A stretch of 64,000 nt of DNA from Nitrospirota bacterium (GTDB lineage Bacteria > Nitrospirota > UBA9217). The position numbers were made by a program, and so were the translations under genes. Numbering within the stretch: position 1 is the stretch's first letter; every line of letters starts with the position of its first letter. Location of the stretch: NCBI GenBank assembly GCA_020052615.1, contig JAGVOT010000134.1:62001-126000 (forward strand). Reading direction: 5' to 3'. Below, piece by piece: positions 23,720 through 56,155 of the stretch. The notes beneath the pieces were generated by a model. The model made no database searches. It was not told where the DNA came from and saw nothing but the letters and a program-made list of their open reading frames with translations.

Positions 23720-24241
23720 ATGCGTAACCTTGGCAGGAAGGGCTTCTCCATGCTTGAGATGTTGACCGTGCTGATGATTATGGGGGTTTTAAGCTCGATC
23801 GCTTTTTCGGCGATGCACGGATACTTCGCGAGAACGAAGCTCAGGAACACGGTCGAGATCGTCGCAGCAGACATCCGGCAGGCACGGTGGCTGGCCCGTA
23901 CCCGCTCTGCCCCATGCACGATTGTTTTTGACGCGGCATCACAGGCCTATGTCATAAGCGGCGAAAAGTCATCCTTGCTGCCCGAAGGTATACGGTTCGG
24001 CATTGACCCCACGGTGAGCGGCAAACCTTCCAATCCCTACTCGGCCCCGCCCCAGGACGGGATCTCTTTCGACAGCGGCAGCAAGAAGAACTTCGCACGG
24101 TTCTTTCCTTCCGGCACGGTAGCGCCTACCGGGGCGGTCTATATCACTGACGGAAAAGAGACGATGGCGATCACCGTTGCCATAACGGGCAGACCAAAGA
24201 TCTGGAAGTCCCACGGCGGGCATAAGTGGGTCTCGCTGTAG
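23720..24241 (+). CDS. FimT-like minor pseudopilin
   Basis: The 173-residue protein begins MRNLGRKG-FSMLEMLTVLMIMGVLS, a class III prepilin leader cut after Gly8, followed by the conserved E at position 5 and a hydrophobic helix. The C-terminal part has the GspH/FimT pattern (..LRNTVEIVAADIRQARWLARTRSAP.. and ..SFDSGSKKNFARFFPSG..). These proteins prime type IV pilus assembly. The ATG at 23720 has CAGGAGGTGAACC upstream. Its own terminator follows, and the sigma-54 promoter of the next operon lies beyond it, so it is transcribed on its own. Confidence 0.85.
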   Translation: MRNLGRKGFSMLEMLTVLMIMGVLSSIAFSAMHGYFARTKLRNTVEIVAADIRQARWLARTRSAPCTIVFDAASQAYVISGEKSSLLPEGIRFGIDPTVSGKPSNPYSAPPQDGISFDSGSKKNFARFFPSGTVAPTGAVYITDGKETMAITVAITGRPKIWKSHGGHKWVSL

Positions 24242-24335: not shown

Positions 24336-24386
24336 AAAGGCAGGTCGCGTTGCGGTATTTGATAATACCGGGGGCGGCCTGCCTTT
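24336..24386 (+). terminator. Rho-independent terminator
   Basis: AAAGGCAGG (from 24337) pairs with CCTGCCTTT and an inner stem CGGTATT/AATACCG closes the loop TGAT; T-rich bases follow. It separates the single pseudopilin gene from the pilus operon downstream. Confidence 0.78.
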
Positions 24387-24500
24387 TGTATATAATCAGG
24401 TCAACAAGAGATTGGGTAATGCATTACACAGGTTGGATGAGGAGGTTATTAAAATCAGCTGAAATGTCTTCCAATATATTGATATTACAACAAAATATAA

Positions 24501-24516
24501 TGGCATGCGGTTTGCT
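24501..24516 (+). promoter_or_regulatory. Sigma-54 promoter for the minor pilin operon
   Basis: TGGCATGCGGTTTGCT matches the -24/-12 consensus TGGCACG-N4-TTGCW with a single mismatch, and GG and GC are exactly 12 bases apart. Transcription would begin near 24527, about 29 bases before the first gene. An NtrC-type activator is required for such promoters; one is encoded at 54803. The rest of the gap 24242-24500 is AT-rich with no gene visible. Confidence 0.8.
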
Positions 24517-24555: not shown

Positions 24556-24747
24556 ATGCCAAAATTCCGGCTCATATGCCCTGAATGCAGTGCAGCGGTC
24601 ATTACGACATACCCGGAGGCTGCGGTCTGGGAACTGTGCCCTGCCTGCAGACGACACATGTGGGACCTCTATGACGCGCGCATGGCTGACAAGGTGGATG
24701 CGAAGTCGGCGATAGGGACGGGAAGGAGCACTCATGCTGAGAATTAG
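24556..24747 (+). CDS. Small zinc-ribbon protein in the pilin operon
   Basis: The 63-residue protein has two CPxC knuckles, C8-PE-C11 and C28-PA-C31, 17 residues apart, the spacing of a zinc ribbon. It is cytosolic, with no leader. The last 14 bases overlap the next pseudopilin gene, so the two are translationally coupled, and it is the first gene after the sigma-54 promoter. No described pilus protein that I recall has this form. It may bind RNA or DNA or be a regulatory partner of the operon. Confidence 0.65.
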   Translation: MPKFRLICPECSAAVITTYPEAAVWELCPACRRHMWDLYDARMADKVDAKSAIGTGRSTHAEN

Positions 24748-25345
24748 CAGAAAGCCGATGATTCGGTCCCAACAGGCTTTCACCATAGTAGAGCTGCTGG
24801 TGGTCATCGGCATCATGGCGACCCTCATCACCATTGCTTCGGTCTCCATTTCCAACTCATTGCGCAACGCACGATTGAAGGATTCCACGCGTGAGCTTCA
24901 GGGGGAGTTGGTGACGATCAGGAACAGGGCGCGGACCCAGCAGCGGATAGTTGTGGTCCAGATGACCGCGACGAGTATCACTGCGTTCTATGATATGAAC
25001 AATGACAAGGTCTACGATGCAGCCGTGGATTTCATTGATGTCAGCAATCCACCCAACGGTGTATTTGATGCCGGCGTTGACACGCCCGGGCTGTTTTTTC
25101 AACATACCTATACGAATGGCATCCAGTTCACTGTGTCCAGTATCCCCGGTGCTGCTGCCCTGGTTCCTCTGACTACTTTCCGATTCAATGCTGCGGGCAA
25201 CATCGACGATGACAACCGCGTCATAACCGTCAGCCTCAACACGGAGCCGAAACGACAGTATCGGATCTGGCTCTTCACCACCGGCAACACCCGGGTGGAG
25301 CGAAGCGAAGATGCCGGCGTTACCTGGCCCACAAGACCGTGGTAG
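24734..25345 (+). CDS. fimU: FimU/GspH-type minor pseudopilin
   Basis: The 203-residue protein has a long leader MLRISRKPMIRSQQA-FTIVELLVVIGIMATLITIASV. The prepilin peptidase site is A|F rather than the usual G|F. E5 of the mature protein is present. The rest follows the GspH pattern, ..LRNARLKDSTRELQGELVTIRNRARTQQR.., and the ending ..NAAGNIDDDNRVITVSLNTEPKRQYRIWLFTTGNTRVER.. GGAAGGAG precedes ATG 24734. It belongs with pilV, pilW and pilX below. Confidence 0.83.
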   Translation: MLRISRKPMIRSQQAFTIVELLVVIGIMATLITIASVSISNSLRNARLKDSTRELQGELVTIRNRARTQQRIVVVQMTATSITAFYDMNNDKVYDAAVDFIDVSNPPNGVFDAGVDTPGLFFQHTYTNGIQFTVSSIPGAAALVPLTTFRFNAAGNIDDDNRVITVSLNTEPKRQYRIWLFTTGNTRVERSEDAGVTWPTRPW

Positions 25346-25369
25346 TAATAGCCGGCCAAGGAGGATATC

Positions 25370-25927
25370 GTGGTACGTTCAGACTTTACAAAGGACCGTC
25401 AGGGCGGTTTCACCCTCTTGGAAACCCTGATCGCGGTCGCGATACTGGCCTTCGGACTGTTATCTGTCGTTACCATGGTGGAGGTATCCTACTCGGCCGG
25501 CGCGCTCGCCAAGAACACGACCAAGGCCACGGAACTGGCGGGCTGGATGATGGACCGTATCCTTCAGGACACATCACTGGCGACCCAGCCCTATACGGCG
25601 AGCATAACCAGCATTCGATCATACGACAACGATGGAACGACTGCCGTGAAACTCATCACCAATAGTGCTGTGGACCCGTTGAACGAGCCGGGCAGAACGG
25701 CCCTTCAGCAGTGGCGGTCGTTGATTCAGGGCACTGCCATCGCGACTTACATCGGCGCGGACCAACTGCGCGGCGACCGGCTCCCCGGGGGGCTGGGTGA
25801 AGTGATCATCGTTCCCTATGACGCCAGCAAGGGCGGAAACCACTCGGTGATGGTTCAGGTGACGTGGAGCAAGGGGCTTATAGAGCATCGTGTTCGCCTG
25901 GAAAATGTCCTGGCGACATCGGAATAA
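25370..25927 (+). CDS. pilV: PilV-type minor pilin
   Basis: The start is GTG 25370 with AAGGAGGATATC upstream. The leader MVRSDFTKDRQGG-FTLLETLIAVAILAFGLLSVVTM is typical of PilV (LLETLIA-x-x-IL-x-x-GLL). The 185-residue protein continues with a helix ..AGALAKNTTKATELAGWMMDRI.. and ..VMVQVTWSKGLIEHRVRLENVL, like type II pseudopilin I/V. With FimU, PilW and PilX it should form the tip complex of the pilus that presents PilY1. The spacing to the next gene is 13 bases. Confidence 0.86.
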   Translation: MVRSDFTKDRQGGFTLLETLIAVAILAFGLLSVVTMVEVSYSAGALAKNTTKATELAGWMMDRILQDTSLATQPYTASITSIRSYDNDGTTAVKLITNSAVDPLNEPGRTALQQWRSLIQGTAIATYIGADQLRGDRLPGGLGEVIIVPYDASKGGNHSVMVQVTWSKGLIEHRVRLENVLATSE

Positions 25928-25940
25928 TAAGGGAGGCGGT

Positions 25941-26909
25941 ATGGGTGCTCATGGACACGATCGGGGCTTCACGCTGGTCGAACTGCTGATCGCGATCTTC
26001 CTTGGCATGCTGGTCATGTCCGGCGGGTACATGGTTTTCCAGGCCAGCAACCGAGCCACGCGGGAACAGAACCTGGACAACCGCATGCAGGACAATGCGC
26101 GGGTCGCCATGGACGTGCTCTCGAGGAACTTCCGGCGCGCCGGTTTCCTGGTCAACTTCACCAGCTATCCCATAGGCCAGTCGGTGGACGGCATGACATC
26201 CAAACTGACCACGACGAATTCCGACGCAGGCCCCGACAGTGTGTCCATACTGGGTGGGACGCTCTCTACGGTCAGGTTCCTCCAGCGGTCCGCGGACCAG
26301 GGAGCATCAACGCTGATCGTGAACGACATCACGGGCATAAATGTGAACAACGTCATCGGTGTGGGGCTCACTTTCAGCAGTGTTGTCTCCGCGGTGAACG
26401 CCGGGTCAAATACTATTACGTTGAACACAACCGTCCCGACCGGGGCCACCAACATGTACTATCCCGGTGTGGTCCTGCAGGACAATGTTACGCCGTCGAA
26501 CCAGACACCTGCGCCAGTGCGCCTGTTGACGGCAATCCGCTACCAGATCAATTCTGCGAACGCCGCTCACCCGCAGCTGGAACAGGTGACCCAGGGGACG
26601 ACCGAGCCGGTGGCCGAGGACGTCGAGGATCTGCAGATCGCCTACGGAGTGGACCGGAACAACAACCGCATTATCGAGGCAGGAGAGTGGACCTACATGC
26701 CAACGACCAACGAGATCGACAAGATCCGGCTGGTGCGCGTCACCCTGGTGGCGCGGACCGCCACTCCCGATCCCCTGCTCCTGAACGTGCCGCAGACCGT
26801 TCCGTCCATCGAGGACCGCCCGCAGCGGATCGTCAACGACGGATACCGGCGGTATATCCTGACGCGGATCATTAAGACGAAGAATCTCGACGCGATCTTT
26901 ACGCTGTAG
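25941..26909 (+). CDS. pilW: PilW-type minor pilin
   Basis: ATG 25941 has GGGAGGCGGT upstream, which favours it over the in-frame start at 25890 inside pilV. The leader MGAHGHDRG-FTLVELLIAIFLGMLVMSG is a classical prepilin site. The 322-residue mature body has ..NLDNRMQDNARVAMDVLSRNFRRAGFL.., the PilW hallmark, and a C-terminal ..YRRYILTRIIKTKNL. It should connect PilV to PilX in the minor pilin complex. No frameshift or missing part is seen. Confidence 0.86.
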   Translation: MGAHGHDRGFTLVELLIAIFLGMLVMSGGYMVFQASNRATREQNLDNRMQDNARVAMDVLSRNFRRAGFLVNFTSYPIGQSVDGMTSKLTTTNSDAGPDSVSILGGTLSTVRFLQRSADQGASTLIVNDITGINVNNVIGVGLTFSSVVSAVNAGSNTITLNTTVPTGATNMYYPGVVLQDNVTPSNQTPAPVRLLTAIRYQINSANAAHPQLEQVTQGTTEPVAEDVEDLQIAYGVDRNNNRIIEAGEWTYMPTTNEIDKIRLVRVTLVARTATPDPLLLNVPQTVPSIEDRPQRIVNDGYRRYILTRIIKTKNLDAIFTL

Positions 26910-26923
26910 AAGAGAGGTGACCT

Positions 26924-27502
26924 ATGCTTACGATCATGAGCAACAAAAAAGGCATTGCCCTGGTGAGCACGCTGTTCTTCCTGATCATCGTGACGATGCT
27001 CTCGACTGCGGCGATCATGCTCTCCACGGTGCAGATGAAGGTGTCGAGCAGCATGTCTCGGTGGGAACGGGGACTTTCAGCGGCCGAGGGCGGTATCAAC
27101 TACGTCGTTCCGCTCCTTCAGTATGTACATTTTGACAGGAAGATCCCGACTCAGTACTGCACGTCTCTCGCTGCGGTAGCGCCCTGCGTTGTTCCTCCGA
27201 ACGTCCACACCCTTATCACGGAGCTTCAGACACTGGTGGAAGACGACGACACGGAGAACCTTCGCATCGCGGCCGCCCCCGCTCCGAGCATGTCCCAGGA
27301 TTTCAATCTCAGCATCGACCTCGACATGGTCGGGACCACCATAACGTCGGGCGGCGGCGTGGAAGCCTCCTGGGCCTATCATGGCGGCGCGTACAGCAGT
27401 TCGCTGCTGCGGGCGTACCGGGTGAGAAGCGAAGCCGCGGTCCCCGGCGGGACCAGCAGGACCGCTGTCTGTCAGGTTATCTGGCTGCGGGCCATCATGT
27501 AG
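26924..27502 (+). CDS. pilX: PilX-type minor pilin
   Basis: The 192-residue protein begins MLTIMSNKKG-IALVSTLFFLIIVTMLSTAAIML, the PilX/PilX_N pattern: a G|I prepilin site with no Glu at position 5. It continues with ..VSSSMSRWERGLSAAEGGIN.., typical of PilX. It lies 15 bases after pilW and 47 bases before the next small gene, so it is in the same operon. The long frame is intact. Confidence 0.8.
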   Translation: MLTIMSNKKGIALVSTLFFLIIVTMLSTAAIMLSTVQMKVSSSMSRWERGLSAAEGGINYVVPLLQYVHFDRKIPTQYCTSLAAVAPCVVPPNVHTLITELQTLVEDDDTENLRIAAAPAPSMSQDFNLSIDLDMVGTTITSGGGVEASWAYHGGAYSSSLLRAYRVRSEAAVPGGTSRTAVCQVIWLRAIM

Positions 27503-27549
27503 GGATAGGATCCTGTAAAAGGACGTCAACCGGTATAAGGAGTAGTGCC

Positions 27550-27900
27550 ATGAACAGACAGGGAAAGATAAGATTCACTTTGGTGTTGACGCTGTTCGCA
27601 GTTCTTCTGACGATAACGAACATGGTCATGGCAGGCGCAAATATCAAAGTCAGCGGAACACTCGACGCTGTCGAGGAACAGGGTAAAGTCGTCATCATAA
27701 CGACCAAGAGCGACAGAATTGATAAGACGGAGAGAGAACATCCTGCCGCATATCAGGTATCCCCATATGCCCTGATCCTTGACGGGAGGGGGCGTAAGAC
27801 AAAACTGGATACCTATGTGATCCCGACCAAGGTGGAATTTGAAGTGGAGTATACCCCGAGCGCAGCGGTGATCAAGAAGATCAGGGAAATTCCTCAGTAA
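27550..27900 (+). CDS. Small secreted protein before pilY1
   Basis: The 116-residue protein has a signal peptide (MNRQGKIRFTLVLTLFAVLLTITNMVMAGA) and a short beta-rich body: VSGTLDAVEEQGKVVIIT, YQVSPYALILDGRGRKTKL and VPTKVEFEVEYTPSAAVIKKI. The ribosome site AAGGAG lies 9 bases upstream of ATG 27550. Its stop is 30 bases before the pilY1 start, so it is part of the operon. I do not recognise the family. It may be a pilus accessory protein acting in the periplasm or with PilY1. Confidence 0.72.
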   Translation: MNRQGKIRFTLVLTLFAVLLTITNMVMAGANIKVSGTLDAVEEQGKVVIITTKSDRIDKTEREHPAAYQVSPYALILDGRGRKTKLDTYVIPTKVEFEVEYTPSAAVIKKIREIPQ

Positions 27901-27930
27901 GTGGCGCAAGTGAAAAGGACGGTGAACGGT

Positions 27931-30900
27931 ATGAGATATTTCATGAAATATAAAAGAACGATCCTGGCGCTGGTGGTCCTGACGATCACGGCCTGGCATG
28001 GCGGCGCCTATGGGGGCGACGCCTGGCTCGATGCGAACGGCATCCGCATCGACAATGTCAACCTGAACGGCCTGCACGTCACGAACAACACCTACTGGAT
28101 CGATCCGCCGTTCCTGAGTGCCAAGGTCAGGCCGAACGTGCTGTTCGTGCTCGACAACTCCGGAAGCATGAACGAACCCGCGTACCGGAGCGACTTCGAT
28201 CCCACGCAGTTCGTGAACGGGCATTACTTCGGGTATTTTGATCCCACGACCTGGTACGAGTATGCGAGCAACCAGTGGACGCCGACGACCAAGGACCCCG
28301 CGACCGCGACCAGCGCGAACCCCATCGCGAAGGGGGATATCCTAAACTGGGCTTACACTGCGAAGATCGAGGCCGCCAAAAAGCTGCTGCTCGGCGGCAA
28401 GGCGAATCCCCGTTCCATGACCACGGGCTGCTGCGTGAAGCTCACGGGAGAGACCTCTGCAAGCAGTTACTCCAAGAACTATGACAGCACGCTGGTCCCT
28501 GTTGCCGACAAGGTCATCTATCCATTTGACGGGAACTATCTGTACAGGAGAAGCGGAGGGTCGCTCACCATTTCTCCGATCACGGCGGGAACGACATTGT
28601 ATGCTTACCCGGCCGGAGAGCTCAGCGCGCCCGTTTCCTGGCTCAGGGGAGGTTCGAGCGTTCAGCCGACCCTCTGGCAGTCCGTCGATGAAACAGCAGC
28701 AGACAACGGCACAACCACCATCCTGAACCAGTCCAAAAAAGACATTGTCCTGTTCGATTATCTTTATGCCGATCCGGTGCCCGCTCTCAACATAGCCAAC
28801 ATCTCGATCTCGGTGGTCGCAAGAGAGAGCAGCAGCAGCAGCAGCAGAAGGGCATATCTTGCGGGAGCGCTTCAGGTGAATGGAGAAACCTACTCAGCGG
28901 GGACCGTCCAAATCACGAGCACAAGCTATCGCACTTATACCATCGGCTCCTGGGATGCCAATCCTGATTCGGGAGCGGCTTGGACGTGGGCGGATATTAA
29001 GACCGCGGGCGCTGCCGCGCTGGAGGGATTCGGGATGTCCGCGAGTATCAACAACGGAGGAGTCCCTACCACCACGAACTATCCGACCGTCACACGGGTC
29101 CAGCTCGTCATCACGCTCGATGTCCCGGCCGGCGGAACATACGGCTTGACGGTTGATACGAACAGATCTGATGTTCGGGGTATTCTGGACGATCTGAGCA
29201 ATGATGCCCGGTTCGGATTGGCATATTATAACACCAGTAACCAGGGTGGTCGTATCGAGACCTATGTGGATTTTGGAACACCGACCAGCATGATCACCTC
29301 CATCGGCAACCTGACCCCGAGCACCTGGACGCCTCTTGCAGAAACGCTTCACGAGATGGTGCGCTATTTCCGTCAGGAGGCGCCCTATTACAACAACAAT
29401 CCCGGCGACTATATAGTTGCACAGAAAAATGATCCTTATTATTTCCAGTATACAAAGCTGGCCGGCTCCGGGCTCACGGACCAGTACGTGCCCTGCGCAA
29501 AATCCTTCATTCTGATGATGACCGACGGTGAACCGACGCAGGACCTGAGCATCCCTGCAGCGCTGCAGGATTATGATAATGACGGCAAGGATCCCGGCAC
29601 GTATCCGAGCAACGGATCCGATTATCTCGATGATGTCGCATACTGGGCGCGGCAGCTCGACCATCGAGCGGACCTTACCGGCGTACAGAACATCATCACC
29701 TACCCCGTGTTCATGTTTGGAAAGGGTTCGAACATTCTCATGGATACGGCGATCAACGGCGGTTATGAGGATCTCGACGGCAATAATAAGCCGGGATGTA
29801 TATATCCGAAGGTCGCCGGTGCGCCCACGCAGGACGAACTTCGGGAATGCTACCGGAATTCCAACGGAAATTTGAATGCGAGCGGCGATGATCTCCTGGA
29901 TCCTTATAATAGCGTCACGAACCCTGACGGCGACGTGCCGCTAACCTATTTTCAGGGTGACGACGGTTATGAACTGCAGACGAGTATCATCGACGCTATC
30001 GCGGCAATACTGAAGCGCGCGGCCTCGGGGACCAGCGTGTCCGTGCTCGGTTCGTCATGGAAGGGCGAAGGCTCTATGTATCAGGCCTACTTCTACCCGG
30101 AGAAGGTGGAGGGACTGCGCAGGATAAAATGGACCGGCTACTTCCATTCGCTCTTTGTTGACCGGAACGGCCTGATCCACGAGGACACGAACGGCGACGG
30201 GAAAATGATACCCTCCGATGACTATGTCGTTGAGTTCGAATTTCAAGCCGGCAACGACACCAAGATAAAGTACTTCAAGGATGAGGTGAACAACGTCGAC
30301 ATGAGCGATCCACATCCCGACGGGAAAGTGGATGGGACTGTGCCGATCAAGACTGTTGGGATCACCGATGCTCATCCGATCTGGGACGGCGGCAAGATGC
30401 TGGCCAAACGCGACCCGGCCGACCGCGCGATCTACACGTCTCTCGATGCATTTACGGCGACACCTCCGGCCACGAATCCGACACTCATTGATTTCAAGGA
30501 CACCAATGCCTCGTCGCTCCGGCCCTATCTACGCGCAAAGACCGATGCGGCAGCAACGAACCTGATCAACTTCGTCCGCGGCGCCGAGATCCCGGGATGG
30601 AGGGACCGGAGGTTGACTGTCGATGGGACTGTCATGACCTGGAAGCTCGGCGACATCGTCTTTTCTGACCCGGTTGTGGTCGCGACGCCGAAAGAGCGTT
30701 TCGACGTTATCTACAACGACAAGACTTACGCGGAATTCTACAACCAGTATGCCAATCGGCGCAGCGTCGTTTATGTCGGCGTGAACGACGGAGTGCTCCG
30801 TGCCTTTAACGGGGGGTTCTTCCTTTCGACGACCGAGACGAACCCGGACAAGGACACCGCGCAGATAACCTTCTGCACAAGTCTGGATCCTAACGACGAC

Positions 30901-32442
30901 ACAAAGTGCGGGCCCGATGATCCTGACAAACCGCTGGGCAAGGAACTGTGGGGCTTCATTCCGCCTGATGTTCTTCCGCACCTGGCGTGGATGGCAGACC
31001 CGGATTACCAACATACATACTACGTTGACAACATGGTAAGGGTCACCGACGCGCGCATCTTCGCCGATGACAAAGACCATCCGAAAGGGTGGGGCACCGT
31101 CATCATTGTCAGCCTTAGGTTCGGTGGCGGCGAGATCGACGTGACCGATGATTTCGGCTCTGGTTCGACGACCAAACAGTTCAAGTCGGCGTACTATGCC
31201 CTTGATGTGACCAATCCCGACCTGCCGCCGAAGCTGTTGTGGAGATTCACAGATTATAATATGGGCTTCACATGGAGCGTGCCGACGTTTGTGCGTGAAG
31301 AAGCCGGTGGGGCCGATACATGGTACATTGCTATGGGATCGGGACCAAGCAACTATCGCGGGGGAAAAGCGATCGATAATACTATAGTGAATACAAAGTT
31401 CACTAAAGATACTGTTGTGGCAGGACTGAAGGGGATGGATTATATTGGAGGTTTTCTCTATGTGATGAATTTGGCGACAGGGGCGCCAGATGCAGCCTGG
31501 ACAGTTCATCCCTCATCTGGAAGGAGAGGCGTTATAAAAGGTAGCGCTGTTCCTCTTTTTATTACTAGTCCTACAGCGGTTGACTATCCTTTAGATTTTA
31601 AATATGACATGCTGTATTTAAGCTATATCTATTGCTCTGCTGGCTGTTCTGCAGATGGCTATGGGACCTGGTCAGGAGATGTGCAGCGCGTAAAAACATT
31701 TAATTCTGTTGATCCGGGAAAATGGGTATGGTCCAGGTTGTTCGCGACAAATCAACCGGTTACAGTGAAACCGGCTGTCGGCATTGACCAGCGAGGGAAT
31801 ATCTGGGTTTACTATGGAACAGGGAGATTTTTACATATCGATGATCGATTTAATACAGTTGCGCAAAATTATTATGGAATAAAGGATCCTTGTTACACTG
31901 CCAACTGTTCCTCGACTGTTTTGAATGGCATAAACATCTTGAATTCGAGCAGTATCACAGTCAACAGTGACGGGACGATAACGCCAGTCCTTGCAACGAA
32001 TGCCTTGGGTACGGGGAAACCGTCTGCAAATATCAGCAGATTTGATGATCTTGCTAATTTTATGCGTGATCAGGCTGATGGATGGAAGATCACTCTTGCT
32101 GCCAGCGAACGGGTCATTGTAAATGGGTTCGTCGTGGGCGGCGTTGCAGGGTTCGGTAGTTACACGCCGACGCAGAGTCTTTGCGAGTTTGAGGGACGGT
32201 CGAAGCAGTATTATCCGTACTATCTGACCGGTACTGTTCCGTACATCCCCGGCGGCACGTTCCTCAACTCAGTTTGGGTGGATTCCGGCGGCGGTCTGCC
32301 ATCCATTCCTGCGGTGCGCGTCGGTTACGACGGGAAAGTAACACTCTATCTGCAGAAGAGTACTGGCGAGATACAAGTGCTGGAGATGCAGGCGGCGCAG
32401 ACCGTGTCAGGCGGATTAGGGTCCGGCGGGGAGTGCGATTGA
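27931..32442 (+). CDS. pilY1: PilY1-like pilus tip adhesin/assembly protein
   Basis: The ATG at 27931 is chosen over GTG 27901, because GGTGA sits 5 bases upstream and a signal peptide follows (MKYKRTILALVVLTITAWHGGAYG). The protein, about 1503 residues, has a von Willebrand A-like N-terminal region with the MIDAS DNSGSMNE, FILMMTDGEPTQDL and a C-terminal PilY1/PilC beta-propeller (VVYVGVNDGVLRAFNG, ELWGFIPPDVLPHLAWM, NIWVYYGTGRFL). Calcium-like loops such as DTNGDGKMIPSDD occur. PilY1 sits at the tip of type IV pili and mediates adhesion and surface sensing. A six-serine CAG run lies near base 28830. From about 31370 to 32110 the base composition is visibly poorer in GC than the rest. Confidence 0.9.
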   Translation: MRYFMKYKRTILALVVLTITAWHGGAYGGDAWLDANGIRIDNVNLNGLHVTNNTYWIDPPFLSAKVRPNVLFVLDNSGSMNEPAYRSDFDPTQFVNGHYFGYFDPTTWYEYASNQWTPTTKDPATATSANPIAKGDILNWAYTAKIEAAKKLLLGGKANPRSMTTGCCVKLTGETSASSYSKNYDSTLVPVADKVIYPFDGNYLYRRSGGSLTISPITAGTTLYAYPAGELSAPVSWLRGGSSVQPTLWQSVDETAADNGTTTILNQSKKDIVLFDYLYADPVPALNIANISISVVARESSSSSSRRAYLAGALQVNGETYSAGTVQITSTSYRTYTIGSWDANPDSGAAWTWADIKTAGAAALEGFGMSASINNGGVPTTTNYPTVTRVQLVITLDVPAGGTYGLTVDTNRSDVRGILDDLSNDARFGLAYYNTSNQGGRIETYVDFGTPTSMITSIGNLTPSTWTPLAETLHEMVRYFRQEAPYYNNNPGDYIVAQKNDPYYFQYTKLAGSGLTDQYVPCAKSFILMMTDGEPTQDLSIPAALQDYDNDGKDPGTYPSNGSDYLDDVAYWARQLDHRADLTGVQNIITYPVFMFGKGSNILMDTAINGGYEDLDGNNKPGCIYPKVAGAPTQDELRECYRNSNGNLNASGDDLLDPYNSVTNPDGDVPLTYFQGDDGYELQTSIIDAIAAILKRAASGTSVSVLGSSWKGEGSMYQAYFYPEKVEGLRRIKWTGYFHSLFVDRNGLIHEDTNGDGKMIPSDDYVVEFEFQAGNDTKIKYFKDEVNNVDMSDPHPDGKVDGTVPIKTVGITDAHPIWDGGKMLAKRDPADRAIYTSLDAFTATPPATNPTLIDFKDTNASSLRPYLRAKTDAAATNLINFVRGAEIPGWRDRRLTVDGTVMTWKLGDIVFSDPVVVATPKERFDVIYNDKTYAEFYNQYANRRSVVYVGVNDGVLRAFNGGFFLSTTETNPDKDTAQITFCTSLDPNDDTKCGPDDPDKPLGKELWGFIPPDVLPHLAWMADPDYQHTYYVDNMVRVTDARIFADDKDHPKGWGTVIIVSLRFGGGEIDVTDDFGSGSTTKQFKSAYYALDVTNPDLPPKLLWRFTDYNMGFTWSVPTFVREEAGGADTWYIAMGSGPSNYRGGKAIDNTIVNTKFTKDTVVAGLKGMDYIGGFLYVMNLATGAPDAAWTVHPSSGRRGVIKGSAVPLFITSPTAVDYPLDFKYDMLYLSYIYCSAGCSADGYGTWSGDVQRVKTFNSVDPGKWVWSRLFATNQPVTVKPAVGIDQRGNIWVYYGTGRFLHIDDRFNTVAQNYYGIKDPCYTANCSSTVLNGINILNSSSITVNSDGTITPVLATNALGTGKPSANISRFDDLANFMRDQADGWKITLAASERVIVNGFVVGGVAGFGSYTPTQSLCEFEGRSKQYYPYYLTGTVPYIPGGTFLNSVWVDSGGGLPSIPAVRVGYDGKVTLYLQKSTGEIQVLEMQAAQTVSGGLGSGGECD

Positions 32443-32470
32443 TCCGACTGTATCAGTGATGTAATAGTCG

Positions 32471-32504
32471 AACGGGCAAGGATTCATACCTTGCCCGTTT
32501 TTTT
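32471..32504 (+). terminator. Rho-independent terminator of the pilus operon
   Basis: CGGGCAAGG pairs with CCTTGCCCG around ATTCATA and is followed by seven T. It lies 30 bases after the pilY1 stop. Confidence 0.92.
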
Positions 32505-48123: not shown

Positions 48124-49935
48124 CTACCAGTTTTGCGAGCTGTGACAGCCGGACAGACCGCCGGCGCTGGGATTGCATGACGCGCCGTTGTAGTTCAGCG
48201 CTGTGGCGGTGGTAGCTGAAGCCGGACCCTCCATGACGGTCGTGTTCAACGTCGTGAAATGGTTCACGGCGAGCTTCGTCGTATCGTGGCAGACCGTGCA
48301 GGCAATGTTCCTGCCCACATGGAGCGTGTGTCTGCCGGAACTGAAGCTGTTAAATTGCGCCGTACCGGAAGCATGGCAGGACGTGCACTGGGTATTCACA
48401 TTTATGCTCCCGGTGAGCCAGCTCGGCGTGGTCTGTCCGCCGTGGCAGCTTACGTTCGAGCAGGTGTTTGCCGTATTGTCGAACGACGCAGCTCCTGATT
48501 CGGCATTATAGGCCGCGCTGCTGATGACCTCGGCTATGCCATTCTGGTGCAACGCCGTGCCCGAACCAGATCCGGAGTGGCATGCGCTGCAGTCGATGTA
48601 CGAACCCAATGCTGTGTGGGCAGTATGCCTGCCGGCCGTGTCAGGGAACGCAGCGCCTGCGGGCGGGATTCCATGACAGGTCCCGCAGCTTGCCGAGGTG
48701 AATGGCCAGGTATGGCACGTGGAGCAGGACGGTCCGGAGAGTGCCACGCCGGTCAACGTTGTCCCGTGGCAGTAGACATTGGCGCAGGAACCGGTCCCGT
48801 TCGCCAGGGCAAAGGCCCGGTGGTTCAATTGCACATTGGGATACCAGGCGAGCATGTGGACCTTCGTCTGATCCTGCATGTGACAGCTGTTGCAGGCGAT
48901 GTGCGAGCCGCCGCCGAGATAATCGGCGCCGTGGCATTTCTGGCAAACGACGCTGTCGGTCAGCGCGGCTGTCTCATGGGCCAGGACGACCCACGACGGG
49001 GCCGGATGGTCCAGACCCGGACCGTTATGGCATTGATAGCATGTGGTCGTCGCGCTTCCGCCCTGGTAGGTCTGGCCGTGGCAGGTCTTGCAGGCCGAGA
49101 AATCCTGTTCGGCGGTCACTCCATGCTGGGTCGAAGCGCTCCAGCCCGCGGGATGGCCCGATGCGGCGTGACAGAGCGTATTGTTAAAGCAGCCGGGAGG
49201 GGTTCCCGCTGCAGCCGGGGGAGAAGGCTGGACCGAGGAGTTCGCGCCGTTCGTATGGCACTGCGCGCAGACCGCCGCGTTACCCTGGTCGGTGTTCGTA
49301 TGGGTCCTCACGCCTCCCCTCCAGGGAGCGGGGGAATGGGGCGCGTTCGCGCCGTGGCAGGTGAAGCAGGATGTCAGGGCCGTGCCTCCCGAGAAGTCGG
49401 TCCCATGGCATGACTGACACTGGGAGAAACCGTTCGCCTGGGATTTTGCCGAGGCGCCATGCTGGGCGGGATCGCTCCAGCCAACGGGGTGCCCCGGCGT
49501 CGCGTGACAGAGCGTATTGTTGAAGCATCCCGGCGCTGCTCCCGCGGGAGCAGGCTGGGCCGGCTGGACCGTGGAGTTCGCGCCGTTCGAATGGCACTGC
49601 GCACAGACCGCCGCATTTCCCTCGGCGGTGTTCGTGTGGGTCCTCACGCCTCCCCTCCAGGGAGCGGGGGAATGGGGCGCCTGCGCGCCATGGCAGGTAA
49701 AGCAGGAAACGGCCGATAAGCCCCCGGCATATCCCGCGCCATGGCACTCCTGACAGGAGGAAAATCCCGCAGCCCGGGATTTTGCGTTGGCGCCATGGGC
49801 GGTTGGATCGGACCAGCCGGTCGGATGTTTCCCGGTAACGGGATCGAACGTTGATTCGTCGGTCCCGGCGCTGCATCCGGTGATGATGGCAGATAGTATC
49901 AGCAGGTACAGGGAGATTCTGGAGCGCATCGTCAT
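48124..49935 (-). CDS. Multihaem c-type cytochrome lipoprotein (CxxCH and CX4CH)
   Basis: The 603-residue protein starts with a lipobox (MTMRSRISLYLLILSAIITG-C). It has 15 CxxCH sites, two CX4CH (CANVYCH, CSNVSCH) and two CX5CH (CFNNTLCH), a mix known from Geobacter CxxxxCH/CxxCH proteins. The N-terminal third is a clear duplication: two near-identical 105-residue units (..GWSDP..HGA.AKS..GFS.C..CHG.., HSPAPWRGGVRTHTNT, CFNNTLCH) and a third, shortened one. It should be anchored to the outer membrane and carry electrons outside the cell. DNA repeats of the same units occur at about 49200-49340 and 49515-49660. It is alone on the minus strand. Confidence 0.92.
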   Translation of the reverse strand: MTMRSRISLYLLILSAIITGCSAGTDESTFDPVTGKHPTGWSDPTAHGANAKSRAAGFSSCQECHGAGYAGGLSAVSCFTCHGAQAPHSPAPWRGGVRTHTNTAEGNAAVCAQCHSNGANSTVQPAQPAPAGAAPGCFNNTLCHATPGHPVGWSDPAQHGASAKSQANGFSQCQSCHGTDFSGGTALTSCFTCHGANAPHSPAPWRGGVRTHTNTDQGNAAVCAQCHTNGANSSVQPSPPAAAGTPPGCFNNTLCHAASGHPAGWSASTQHGVTAEQDFSACKTCHGQTYQGGSATTTCYQCHNGPGLDHPAPSWVVLAHETAALTDSVVCQKCHGADYLGGGSHIACNSCHMQDQTKVHMLAWYPNVQLNHRAFALANGTGSCANVYCHGTTLTGVALSGPSCSTCHTWPFTSASCGTCHGIPPAGAAFPDTAGRHTAHTALGSYIDCSACHSGSGSGTALHQNGIAEVISSAAYNAESGAASFDNTANTCSNVSCHGGQTTPSWLTGSINVNTQCTSCHASGTAQFNSFSSGRHTLHVGRNIACTVCHDTTKLAVNHFTTLNTTVMEGPASATTATALNYNGASCNPSAGGLSGCHSSQNW

Positions 49936-50783
49936 TGTGTATTTCTACCTTTCTTGAGATTTGGACGACCGGTCATATCTACAGTACGGAAGATCGCCGC
50001 TTTGCCTGGTCCGGACGCCGTTTTAACTGCAGGCATGCTGGTGTTCCGATGTGAGTGTTCCTGCGCTTTGTATTTGCACTGTGCGCTAGTGATGGGTGAT
50101 GTAAGGACTGACGAAGTCTTGATTACGTGCGTATATGCTAACGCTTCGGCCAAGATCGTGTCAATACCAAATATTTTATGAGAATAATTATAGATAAGGC
50201 AATAAATAAACTACCTAGAAAACCAAAAACGAGGCTAACCAAAAAACGCCTCATATCGGGCACATGTGCCGCAGCCTTGTAAGCATACGAACAGTAAAGA
50301 AAGCCTACTTTATTTTTGCAAAGTGAATGCCACCAGGGCTGGGACCACATTAACTAACTGATTGTTTTAACCTTTAGGTGCTTTACCTGTATGATGGCCA
50401 GTCTTCCTGACAAGAAAAAGATTGTCTGTATTTTCATACGACGAAATCAGGCTGTATGCTGAAAAAGCGCGATTTGGCCAAATAAACAGATTGTTAGCCT
50501 GTTGGAGGAATTCACCTGCAGGGGAAGAGTCTGCGAAGGCACCGTCATACATTCATAGAACAGGTTGTCAGTTGAAGTCGTCCCCGTGGAGGAGAGAGCC
50601 CAATGCCTGTTAATATTCCCGGTGCTCCATTGCGCGGGGATAATCGATGCTTTTATCGCATTGTCAGACGCCCGACTGTCCGGTCGTCCTCCCCTTGATG
50701 CGCCGATCATGCCGGGGCCGATGTCATTGTTGAAAAGCGGTCGTTTATACAGGAGCGACGGGTTCTTTCTAAGTGCTGTTCAC
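49936..50783. other. AT-rich intergenic island without a firm gene
   Basis: The stretch is clearly poorer in GC than its neighbours, especially 50160-50360. A perfect palindrome GGCACATGTGCC lies at 50259-50270 and a hairpin GAGGC..GCCTC at 50231-50252. Small frames exist (for example a 38-residue membrane peptide from 50254 down to 50138) but lack ribosome sites and homology. It may hold control sites for the sensor kinase gene. Confidence 0.5.
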
Positions 50784-50890: not shown

Positions 50891-53800
50891 ATGCCCATAC
50901 GAACTAAATTCATCCTGATCCTCCTCGCGTTCATTATCGTCCCCGGCGTATTGTTCAGCGCGATGGTATATTCGACGGCGCGAACATCGCTGATGGACGT
51001 GAGGATCGCGCAGCTGAACAACGTCGCCGCCCTTAAGAAGGACAGGATCGAGGCCTTTTTCAGCGCCTGGCGGTCACAGATCGCGATGGTCCAGCACAAT
51101 CCCGATATTGAGCATTTCCTCCCTGTTCTGGTCGCCAACGCCGGGAACAAGGAATCATCGGCCTACCGGCAGGCTTTCGCCGAACTGGAGGAGCAACTGC
51201 AGGTAATCCAGAGGGTCAATGGATATCTGAACGTCCTTCTGGTCGACCCCCGGGGAAGGATCGTATATTCAAGCAGCGATAGAAACCGTGCTCCGCTTTC
51301 CGAGGTATCGCCTCCCGTCAAATACTTCCACGAAGCGCGAAAAAATATCTTCTTTTCAGACATCTATCGAAGAACGTCGGATAGCGCGCCGCTGGCGATG
51401 ATCGGAGCAGCGCCCGTCCATGACGTTCAGGGCGTCTTTGTCGGTGAGATCGTGATCGAGCAGGCGATGGACCTTGTCTACCGGACCATCCTGGACACGA
51501 CCGGACTCGGGCGGACGGGAGAGGTCGTCATCAGCCGCCGGGAAGGAAACGCCGTCATGTTCCTGAGTCCCTTGAAGAGCGATCCTTACGCAGCGTTCGT
51601 CAGGAAGATCCCCTATGCCAGCAAGCAGGCTTACCCGTCGCAGCGGGCGTCCCGGGGAGAGACCGGCTCGGGGATCACCCTTGATTATCAGGGAACCGAG
51701 GTGCTGGCCGCGTGGCAGTACCTGCCATCTGTTCGCTGGGGGCTGGTGACCAAGATCCATGCGTCTGAAGCCTTCGCTCCGATCGAGCATATGAGAAACC
51801 TGATCATCCTGCTGGGCGGCGTCTTCCTGTTCCTCGCGGTCCTTGTCGCCTACGCAACAGCGCGGAGCGTCGCCGACCCGATCCTGGAACTGCAGAAGGG
51901 CACGGACGTCATCGGCCGCGGCAATCTCGACCATAGGGTCGGGACGACGGCGAAGGACGAGGTTGGAGATCTGTCGCGGATGATCGACGTGATGACCACA
52001 AACCTGAAAAGGGTGACAGCATCGCGCGACGAACTGGATGCGGAGATCACCGTGCGAAAAAGCGTCGAACTGTCGCTTGTCGAGCAGTCGCGGGTCCTGG
52101 AGGCCTACTTCAAGCATTCCGTGTCGCCCCTGGTGTTCCTCGACCGGGAGTTCAACTTCCTCAGGGTGAACGAGGCCTACGCACGGGTCTGTTCTCGTTC
52201 CGTGGAGGATTTTCCCGGCATAATCACTTTGTCGATTATCCTTCCGATGAACTGAAGCAGGAGTTCGAGAACGTCGTGAACACCGGCATTCCTTATTACA
52301 AAGATGCGCGGCCCTTCCGGTTCCCGGACCATCCCGAATGGGGGACCACGTACTGGGACCTCATCGTGAACCCCATCGTGGATGACGATGGAAAGGTCGA
52401 TTTTCTGGTGTTCTCGCTGAACGACGTGACCCATCGCACGGAAACGGAGCGCCGCATAGCCGTTACCAGCGCTCTCCTGAAGCAGTTCGCCGGGAAATAC
52501 GACAGGAAGGAATACCTCGACGCCGCTGTTGACCTCATCTGCGAATGGAGCGGCTGCCGGAACGCGGGTATCAGGATAACGGACGAGGAGGGCAACATCC
52601 CCTTCCGGGCGTGCCGCGGGTTCAGCGACGAGTTCCTGGCGTCGGAGAACGCCTTGTCCGCTGCTGTCGACCGGTGCACATGCACCCGGGTCATCACCGA
52701 AAAACCGGAGCTGCATGACCTGCCCGCGATGACGCAGAGCGGCTCGTTCGCGACCAACGACCTGAGGCTGTTCATGGAGGAGCTGACGCCCGAACAGCGG
52801 AATGCGTTCCGCGGCGCCTGCCTGCGGTGCGGGTTCGGGTCCCTCGCCGTGATCCCGGTGAAGCACCGTGGCCAGATGCTCGGCGCCATACACCTGGCTG
52901 ATGAACGGCAAGGCATGGTCCCTCTGAAGAACGTGGAATTCCTTGAACAGCTCGCTTTCATCATCGGCGAGGCGGTCTACCGGTTCGATATCGAGGACGA
53001 ACTGCGCAGGAACTATGACGCCCTCCGGCTGTCGGAAACACGCTACCGCGCGCTGGTCGAGGATATCCGCGACGTCATTTTCACCCTGACAGAAGGCGGT
53101 TCCATTGCTTCCCTGAACACCGCCTTCGATGTGAACACCGGGTTTTCACGGGATGAATACGTGGGGAGGCAGTTTGTCGAACTGATACATCCCTACGATC
53201 TGCCCCATGCCATGGAGATCTTCGCGAACATCCTGTCAGGACATCCAATGCCGCTGTTCGAACTGCGGGTGCGTACGCGCTCCGGGGAGTATCGCACCTT
53301 TGAGTTCAAGGTCGGCACGGACCGGACCGCCGAGGGGATGATCCTCGGGACCGCCCGCGATGTGACCGAGCGCAAACAGGCGGAAGAGCAGCTGAACCTC
53401 TTTATTGACCTCATCAACCAATCCATTGATGCCGTGTATGTGGCGGACCCGGCAACGGGCGCGATCGTGGAGTTCAACGAGGCTGCCTGCATCAGCACGG
53501 GATATTCCCGGCGGGAATTGCTGTCGATGAAGGTCTCCAATCTTTCCCGCAAACACTTCGACCGTGAACGCTGGAACGATCATGTCTCGGAAGTACGGAA
53601 CAAAGGGGCGCTGCTCCTGGAAGATGTCGTCTATCGCAAGGACGGGAGCGCGATTCCCGTGGAAGTGGCCGTTAAGTACATCTCCCGCGGGGAGCAGGAT
53701 TACCTGGTCGCGGTCATTCGTGATGTGACCGAACGAAAACAGGCCGAGGAGGAGCACGCCCGCCTGGTCTCCGCGGTCGAGTCGGCTGCCGACGCGATCG

Positions 53801-54816
53801 TGATCACGCACCCCGCCACCGGCGTGATCCAGTATGCCAATCGCGCATTCGAACAGATCACCGGATATGCCAGGCAGGATGCAGTGGGGAGGACGCTGCA
53901 TTTCCTTGAGAGCGGCGAGCATGGCGAGGAACATTTCCACGGCATCCGGGAGACCCTGGCAAACGATGGTGTCTGGAGTGGAAAACAAGTCAGCAGGCGG
54001 AAGGACGGCTCAACCTATTTCGAGGAATGCACGGTATGGCCGGTGAAGAACAGGAACAATGAGATCATCAACTACGTGTATATCAAGCGGGATGTAACGG
54101 AGCGTCTCCGGCTCGAAGCCATCGCCGAGTCGGTCAACACGATGGACAATATCGGCTACGTATTCTCGGGGGTCCGGCACGAGATCGGCAATCCCATCAA
54201 TTCGATCAACATGATCCTCGGCATCCTGCGGGCAAAGCTGGACACCCTGCCGACGGAGGCCGTGAAGGACTATCTGGCGAAGATGACGGAGCAGATAAGC
54301 CGGGTCGAATACATTTTGCGCTCGCTCAAGAGCTTCAACCTTTACGAGACCCAGCAGCCGCAGAACATCGACCTGTCAAGCTTCATGGGGAACTTTCTGC
54401 CGCTGATACGGAATGATCTCGCACGGAAGGGCATCACCGTCCAGGCCGCTGTCGAGCCGGACAGCACGGCTTATGCCGATGCCCGGGCGCTTCAGCAGGT
54501 GCTCCTGAACATCATAACCAACGCCGCTGACGCGGTGACGGACCGGGCGGACCCCGTCATTGTTCTCTCCCTGTCTTGCAGCGCCGGTTCGGCGCGGATC
54601 CGGGTGCGGGACAACGGACAGGGAATCCCCGAGGACAAGTTGAAGAACATCTACAGGCCGTTCTATACGACAAAGAAGCAGGGGACCGGGCTCGGCCTGG
54701 TCATCGTGCGGAAGATGCTTGCCCGGATGAACGGCCGCATCGATTTGACAAGCACCATGGGCGAAGGGACCACCGTGGAGATCACCATTCCGGAGGGAAC
54801 GCATGAAGTCCGCTAA
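50891..54816 (+). pseudogene. Multi-PAS sensor histidine kinase with one frameshift
   Basis: The first part (50891-52255) has a membrane helix (FILILLAFIIVPGVLFSAMV), an extracytoplasmic dCache-like sensor to about residue 290, a second helix near 303-325, a HAMP domain (..DPILELQKGTDVIGRGNLDHRVG..) and the start of a PAS domain. At about 52217 the frame shifts: reading +1 gives HNHFVDYPSDEL.. continuing the PAS domain to 52276 and on to 54816. One missing G after CCCGG would explain it. The second part has a GAF, three more PAS domains, the H-box FSGVRHEIGNPINSI and an ATPase with NIITNAADAV, RDNGQGIPEDKL and KKQGTGLGLVIV. It overlaps the response regulator gene by 14 bases. If the shift is a sequencing error the kinase is intact. 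Confidence 0.82.
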
Positions 54817-56155
54817 TACCAGAAAAACGCTGCTCGTCATCGATGATGACCGCGTATTTGGAGAGGCCATCAGGGACTACCTGTCAAGCGAGTCCGTGGA
54901 AGTGCTCATCGCCAACAAGGCGGCGGACGGCCTGACCCTCTGCTCCCTCCGGAAGATCGACGTCGTCGTGCTGGACCAGCAGCTTCCCGACGGGGAAGGG
55001 CATACCCTGTGCCCGGACATCCTGCGGTATAACGACCAGACCAAGATCATCTTTTCGACGGCCTTCCCCAGCTTTGAGAACGCCGTCAAAGCCATCCGGT
55101 TCGGGGCCCATGATTATCTTTCCAAACCCTATGATCTGGAGGAGCTTGCCCTGGCCGTTCGGCAGTCCTTCCGCACCCTGGAGTTGGAGCAGGTCGAACA
55201 GGTCCAGAACTATCAGCGCACGCGGGAAAAAGAGGGCGCCGTCATCATCGGCGGAGAGGGCATCGCCGATGTGCTTCAGCTCGTCGAGATCGCGGCGGTG
55301 TCTGATTCGCCGGTGCTCATAACCGGCGAGACGGGGACCGGCAAGACGCTCGTGGCCAAGGCCATCCACTTCAAGGGCAAGCCGAACAGCGCGCCTTTCG
55401 TGAGCATCAATTGCGCGTCGCTGCCGGAAAATCTCATCGAGGCGGAGCTCTTCGGCTTCGAGAAAGGCGCGTTCACCGGCGCGGTCAATGCCAAAAAAGG
55501 CCTGTTCGAAATGGCTGAGGGCGGTACGCTGTTCCTCGATGAGATCGGGGAAATGCCGTTTCACCTTCAGTCGAAATTGCTGAGCGCCCTGGAGGACCGG
55601 ATGATCCGCCGGCTCGGTGGGACTTCTTCCAAACCGATCAGTGTGCGGATCATCGCCGCCACGAGCGTGGAACTGGAGGACACCCTCGGCAAGAACTTCA
55701 GGAAAGACCTTTACTACCGCCTCAGCGTGGTCCGGATACACATCCCCCCCCTTCGTGAACGGAGAGGGGACATCCCCGTGCTGTGCGGCTATCTGCTCAA
55801 GACCATCACCACCCATCCGATCGAGATCCCCGACGACGACATGACGCTGCTCATGAAGTACGACTGGCCGGGAAACGTGCGCGAGCTCAAGAACATCCTT
55901 GAGCGTGCGCTCTTCATCCAGAAGGGCGCGACGCTGGAGCCGTCCCTCCTTCTGGAAAAGAGGGCTCCGGCACCGGCGAATTGCACGTTTCCCGTTGCTC
56001 CGGAAATGACCATCAAGACCCTCGATGAGTGTGAAAAAGAGATCATCGCCGCTGCGCTGGCCCAACTGAAAGGCAATCTCACTCAGACCGCGAAAGCGCT
56101 CGGCATATCGCTGTCTACGCTCAAGAGAAAGATACAGGAATACCATATAAAATAA
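54803..56155 (+). CDS. NtrC-type sigma-54-dependent response regulator
   Basis: The 450-residue protein has a receiver domain with D14-D16 acids and the phosphoacceptor D58 (VVVLDQQLPDG), then an AAA+ domain with Walker A GETGTGKT, the sigma-54 contact loop GAFTGA (intact), FLDEIGEMPFHLQSKLL, and the arginine finger region DLYYRLSVVRIHIPPLRER. A Fis-type helix-turn-helix ends it (..LTQTAKALGISLSTLKRKI..). It is overlapped by the kinase gene, so the two are a pair. It could activate the sigma-54 promoter at 24501, which is only a guess. A run of eight C (near 55745) keeps frame. Confidence 0.94.
   Translation: MKSANTRKTLLVIDDDRVFGEAIRDYLSSESVEVLIANKAADGLTLCSLRKIDVVVLDQQLPDGEGHTLCPDILRYNDQTKIIFSTAFPSFENAVKAIRFGAHDYLSKPYDLEELALAVRQSFRTLELEQVEQVQNYQRTREKEGAVIIGGEGIADVLQLVEIAAVSDSPVLITGETGTGKTLVAKAIHFKGKPNSAPFVSINCASLPENLIEAELFGFEKGAFTGAVNAKKGLFEMAEGGTLFLDEIGEMPFHLQSKLLSALEDRMIRRLGGTSSKPISVRIIAATSVELEDTLGKNFRKDLYYRLSVVRIHIPPLRERRGDIPVLCGYLLKTITTHPIEIPDDDMTLLMKYDWPGNVRELKNILERALFIQKGATLEPSLLLEKRAPAPANCTFPVAPEMTIKTLDECEKEIIAAALAQLKGNLTQTAKALGISLSTLKRKIQEYHIK

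Follow-up and report, generated by a model that had tools for sequence, protein, structure and literature searches.

A predicted sigma-54 promoter with a phased upstream palindrome at the minor-pilin/PilY1 operon of a Nitrospirota bacterium

The minor-pilin/PilY1 operon in the window (the whole stretch of 64,000 nucleotides of contig JAGVOT010000134.1 that we have analysed) is preceded by the sequence TGGCATGCGGTTTGCT, and the question is whether this short motif is a functional sigma-54 promoter and, if so, which activator would work on it. The operon is of the type IVa kind, with several N-methylated pilin-like genes, PilW, PilX and PilY1 all running in one direction, and is syntenic with its counterparts in the congener G001 and in G010 (Table 1). 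Its first gene encodes a zinc-ribbon-like protein with the conserved residues W25, W36 and D40, whose clear homologs occur in only 7 of the 396 Nitrospirota genomes, all from the window's own family. This protein has no significant Pfam family and no solved relative; no relative was found in the viral contigs searched. The plasmid collection gave no match. The small ORF in the PilX-PilY1 interval is found also in G010 and G005, and similar-looking small ORFs seem to stand directly 5' of PilY1 in other families (e.g., L118 and L179). On the other side, the first hairpin parts the upstream GspH-like pseudopilin gene (23720–24241) from the operon, and a similar hairpin occupies the same place in G001. 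This pseudopilin gene, just upstream of the hairpin, adjoins the operon also in G001, G002 and G010.

Table 1 Features at and around the minor-pilin/PilY1 operon, with positions in the window.
Feature	Position	Strand	Remarks
Terminator-like 13-bp inverted repeat, then TTTTG	24336–24386	+	Arms 24336–24348/24374–24386, 92% complementary
Putative enhancer (UAS) palindrome GTAATGCATTAC	24416–24427	.	Centre about -105; conserved
IHF consensus TATCAATATATTG, candidate site	24472–24484	-	Matches WATCAANNNNTTR; between palindrome and promoter; also in congener G001
Predicted sigma-54 -24/-12 promoter TGGCATGCGGTTTGCT	24501–24516	+	Exact match; kept in 7/7 family genomes that have the zinc-ribbon gene
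Zinc-ribbon-like protein, 63 aa, CPxC...CPxC, first gene of the operon	24556–24747	+	Homologs head the PilY1 operon in 7 family genomes
Minor pilin, FimU/GspH-like, N-methylation motif	24734–25345	+	PF07963
Minor pilin, PilV-like	25370–25927	+	PF07963
Minor pilin PilW	25890–26909	+	PF16074 and PF07963
Minor pilin PilX	26924–27502	+	PF14341
Small ORF with signal-like N-terminus, PilX-PilY1 interval	27550–27900	+	tblastn 52% identity in G001 (1e-35)
PilY1, 1513 aa	27901–32442	+	PF05567 at its cut-off; identity 68% to G001, 57% to G010
Terminator-like hairpin at the operon end	32470–32500	+	12-bp stem, then T run
NtrC-type activator, probably not acting on 24501–24516	54803–56155	+	PF00158, PF00072, HTH_8

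In TGGCATGCGGTTTGCT, GG (24502–24503) and GC (24514–24515) are ten bases apart within TGGCAYR-N4-TTGCW, which is the correct -24/-12 register, and a C to T change at the sixth base is the single difference from TGGCACG-N4-TTGCW. The predicted start lies at about 24527, and the first ATG (24556) is 29 bases downstream. The preliminary description of this DNA had given the same position, register and distance to the ATG, and all of them are confirmed. By itself within the window, the motif is weak evidence: TGGCAYN5TTGCW has two exact matches there, and with one mismatch allowed, 5 matches are found against 3.0 expected. A second exact -24/-12-like site, TGGCATTCACTTTGCA (50317–50332, minus strand), lies some 370 bases 5' of the gene for a multihaem cytochrome c (48124–49935, minus strand), and the sensor-kinase/NtrC-type pair adjoining it (52276–56155) may be the regulator of that site.

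We have scanned the source genome with fixed patterns, taking the reversed pattern as the control. The exact sigma-54 pattern is enriched, with 25 matches versus 8 for the reversed one. Every one of these 8 lies inside a long ORF; of the 25 real matches, about half are intergenic, among them sites 5' of nifH-like and amtB-like genes. The preliminary description had proposed such a genome-wide scan, together with a search for enhancer boxes 100–200 bases upstream, and had named the absence of rpoN as an observation that would speak against its claim. The rpoN gene is in fact present (PF04552, E 9e-60, G000:C17), and 34 PF00158 matches represent AAA+ activators in the genome.

The upstream search has found the palindrome GTAATGCATTAC, a predicted enhancer site for an AAA+ activator, conserved, phased and placed at -105 within the expected range of about -80 to -200. 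Among the 25 sigma-54 matches of the genome, that at 24501–24516 is the only one with a GTAAY-N2-RYTAC palindrome no more than 200 bp upstream. GTAATGCATTAC has one exact copy in the genome; because none of its near matches elsewhere there has a sigma-54 site downstream, the regulon in this genome may consist of the 24556–32442 operon alone. An IHF site between enhancer and promoter is common and not obligatory in this class, and here it is present as a strict consensus in the window's genus. Three HU/IHF-family genes are encoded in the genome.

In each of the 7 family genomes that carry the zinc-ribbon gene, the -24/-12 site and the GTAAY-N2-RYTAC palindrome stand 5' of it. The distance from the palindrome centre to the predicted start is 105–107 bp in all of them, with the intervening DNA largely diverged. 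We consider this conservation of the whole arrangement to be the decisive evidence for the predicted promoter. Along with the presence of rpoN and the recurrence across the phylum described below, it strongly supports the earlier claim of a sigma-54 promoter ahead of the minor-pilin/PilY1 operon. Judged from these comparisons, 24501–24516 should almost certainly be a functional sigma-54 promoter of this operon.

For the phylum-wide search, we have combined both elements in a composite pattern, GTAAYNNRYTAC-N60..89-GGYAYN5TTGCW, again with the reversed pattern as the control. The composite pattern occurs in 55 of the 396 Nitrospirota genomes, most of the compared genomes being draft assemblies, versus 4 matches of the reversed pattern. 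A further 51 regions were retrieved. At least 41 of the retrieved places lie directly 5' of PilY1 and/or minor-pilin genes, and they cover 15 families and 29 genera. The flanks of the palindrome, which are outside the search pattern, are also conserved (T-1 93%, A+12 91%, A+14 90%), giving the phylum consensus TATGTAAYNNRTTACATA. In addition, the gap from the palindrome to the -24 element clusters at 64–66, 73–78 and 82–87 bp, at intervals of one helical turn. When each genus contributes a single site (n=29), the concentration R of the phases is 0.74, which is reached in 0 of 200,000 uniform draws; since the search fixed the core letters and a gap of 60–89 bp, this result holds only inside that range. 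The IHF consensus is found in 14 of 59 palindrome-promoter gaps, compared with 0.7 expected from dinucleotide shuffles. Overall, the palindrome, the phased gaps and the IHF consensus are the features expected of a sigma-54 promoter that is activated from an enhancer by looping.

About ten composite matches lie 5' of other genes. In L213, L215 and L184, the palindrome and sigma-54 module stands 5' of genes for FecR-like proteins and lipoproteins, or of a comparable pair of genes, and these sites are possibly further targets of the regulon or matches by chance. Four Nitrospira-like genomes (L174–L177) have in common a composite match in which the palindrome is GTAACTCRTTAC and the gap is 65 bp; they have neither a pilus gene downstream nor an ortholog of the activator discussed below. 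These four sites are probably unrelated to the pilus regulon.

As to the activator, 4 genomes from 3 families have the gene of an NtrC-type regulator a short distance 5' of the module. For all four of these module-linked EBPs, the best relative in the source genome is the EBP on contig C85 (G000:C85:88522–89922, 466 aa), at 52–61% identity over about 450 aa. The module-linked activators carry the recognition helix SYKTLLTKI, and the C85 EBP has the same helix (SYKTLL). The gene of the latter is downstream of those of a PAS histidine kinase and the prepilin peptidase PilD, and it is unlinked to the minor-pilin/PilY1 operon in the source genome; in relatives from several other families, the PilD-kinase-EBP cluster often adjoins minor-pilin/PilY1 genes. 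Geobacter presumably has an EBP/HK/PilD cluster beside its minor pilins as well, which we take as a lead only. In a maximum-likelihood tree, the C85 EBP forms one clade, with a support of 100/100, with 24 EBPs that are either module-linked or were chosen by profile. The other 25 EBPs that the tree has from the source genome, among them L101 of the window and PilR (L081), fall outside this clade.

A profile of the C85-type HTH gives strong matches (E<=2e-16) in 195 of the 396 Nitrospirota genomes. The activator ortholog accompanies the module in 49 of its 55 genomes and is present in 146 of the 341 genomes that lack the module (Fisher p 3e-11, with phylogeny ignored). Six module genomes have no activator ortholog, and four of them are those with the Nitrospira-like sites that are not 5' of pilus genes. 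Conversely, a composite match occurs in just 49 of the 195 genomes having the activator ortholog, about a quarter; for the rest, the strict pattern, draft assemblies, other forms of the site or a truly absent site may be responsible. According to linkage, orthology and the tree, the activator of the 24501–24516 promoter is likely to be the C85 EBP rather than PilR or the EBP of the window.

The preliminary description had hinted that the NtrC-type regulator of the same window controls the operon, and this part is unsupported. It is true that the receiver, AAA+ and HTH domains of this regulator are complete, with GAFTGA, and that it is encoded on the operon's own contig, about 30 kb away. However, its recognition helix reads SLSTLKRKI instead of SYKTLLTKI, and its HTH score is 65 versus 150–178 for the module-linked activators. 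In the tree it sits on a long branch together with L098, a further EBP of the source genome. In relatives, no EBP of the window type was detected next to the module, and the second sigma-54-like site and a cytochrome gene are nearer to the window's regulator than the operon is. We have set it aside on its recognition helix, its place in the tree and its lack of linkage to the module, and activation of a true sigma-54 promoter by it is very unlikely. PilR of the PilSR system, under which minor pilins and pilin would respond together, has precedents: Geobacter sulfurreducens pilA has a mapped RpoN promoter that PilR switches on (PMC2725144), and in Pseudomonas, pilA is under the control of PilSR (PMC6058289). 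A pilB-pilT-pilC-pilS-pilR cluster, whose PilS has a 6TM_PilS domain, exists separately in the source genome. Nevertheless, the recognition helix of PilR here is LSFRSFRHRL, and PilR falls outside the module-linked clade; the module-linked EBPs are not PilR orthologs and group with L082, not with PilR L081. With the helix, the tree and the want of linkage to the module all against PilR, this version of a true sigma-54 promoter is quite unlikely. PilSR is encoded elsewhere, and therefore the tip genes can be regulated apart from the PilSR-controlled genes, so that it is plausible that the minor-pilin operon is controlled independently of the canonical pilus regulator. A sigma-54 site was also sought upstream of the C96 pilin, which is beside an NtrC-like gene, and none was found. 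A PilA-like pilin (L122:8123–8731, minus strand) adjoins an NtrC-like kinase/regulator pair, and the 500 bases upstream of it have no -24/-12 match with conserved GG/GC.

The two remaining alternatives question the promoter itself. If the main promoter were of the sigma-70 type, e.g., at the TATAAT of 24391–24396, the palindrome would be the operator of an ordinary repressor and the -24/-12 site secondary. Such a TATAAT is present just 3' of the hairpin in both the window and G001, but it has no acceptable -35, and a promoter scan gives no sigma-70-type site in the gap. Moreover, the coupling of the palindrome to the -24/-12 site with helical spacing over 15 families is not expected of an operator belonging to a separate promoter, which makes this alternative highly unlikely. 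That TGGCATGCGGTTTGCT is a chance match to a short consensus would agree with the near-chance number of one-mismatch matches in the window alone, but is refuted in practice by the 7/7 conservation and the recurrence at operons of this kind throughout the phylum, and has hardly any probability left.

Our explanation of the locus as a whole is thus a sigma-54 promoter with a palindrome at -105 and the C85 EBP, driving a pilus-tip operon, to which we give a probability of roughly 85%. From these sequences we infer the following course of events. RpoN polymerase would be parked at the -24/-12 site as a closed complex, and a phosphorylated NtrC-type response regulator, likely the C85 EBP, would bind the TGTAAY-N2-RTTACA palindrome at about -105. 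The DNA between palindrome and promoter should then loop, probably aided by IHF in the window's genus, and the activator, being on the same helical face, would spend ATP to open the promoter.

This arrangement can be compared with known systems. It resembles the NtrC-family enhancer promoters with IHF (nifH, glnA, and pilA of Geobacter sulfurreducens, PMC2725144) in the -24/-12 register, the upstream palindrome near -105, the intervening IHF consensus in the window's genus and the candidate AAA+ response regulator. It differs in its target, a minor-pilin/PilY1 operon, in the TATGTAAYNNRTTACATA box, and in the candidate activator, which belongs to a PilD-linked pair distinct from PilSR. PilS-PilR (PMC6058289, PMC6211767) likewise couples a PAS histidine kinase to a pilus regulator of the NtrC type; unlike the present candidate, it controls pilA, and the PilSR of the source genome is separate and has another recognition helix. 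In Myxococcus xanthus, the NtrC-like HsfA binds the promoters of pilY1/minor-pilin operons and alters their transcription, and in its absence one pilY1 falls while another rises (PMC9109919). The likeness to this HsfBA phosphorelay, i.e., NtrC-like control of pilY1 operons, is a functional analogy only, as HsfB is a hybrid kinase and HsfA also governs lonD and secondary-metabolite genes (PMC9109919). The fimU-pilVWXY1Y2E operon of Pseudomonas aeruginosa, which is of the same kind, is controlled by AlgZR and Vfr, and so has a dedicated two-component input apart from the control of pilin (PMC8787478). Its boxes and architecture differ from those described here. Neither AlgR nor Vfr is known to be a sigma-54 activator.

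In the literature, within an incomplete open-access coverage, we have found no report of this pilus-tip regulon or of the TATGTAAYNNRTTACATA box. A cross-phylum sigma-54 survey of 2025 names PilA, and does not name Nitrospirota, PilY1 or minor pilins (PMC12316311). Pilus-tip complexes decide the start of the type IV pilus and its adhesion target. Control of their supply is known in few bacteria, and in none of the Nitrospirota as far as the searched literature shows. The present case, likely a further one of enhancer-type pilY1-operon control outside Myxococcus, offers a testable pair, namely the TATGTAAYNNRTTACATA box near -105 and a single named activator gene together with its kinase, and since the pilus-linked sites extend over 15 families, cultivable relatives may permit a direct test.

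Beyond this locus, we somewhat favour the view that an ancient Nitrospirota regulon exists, in which a PilD-linked NtrC-type two-component system, not PilSR, would be dedicated to the pilus-tip operon through the fixed-phase TATGTAAYNNRTTACATA enhancer. If that is true, how many pilus tips are made, or of which type, would be tuned independently of the pilin supply, the signal may be pilin processing or surface contact, and the tiny zinc-ribbon protein encoded by the first gene would be a family-specific feedback element.
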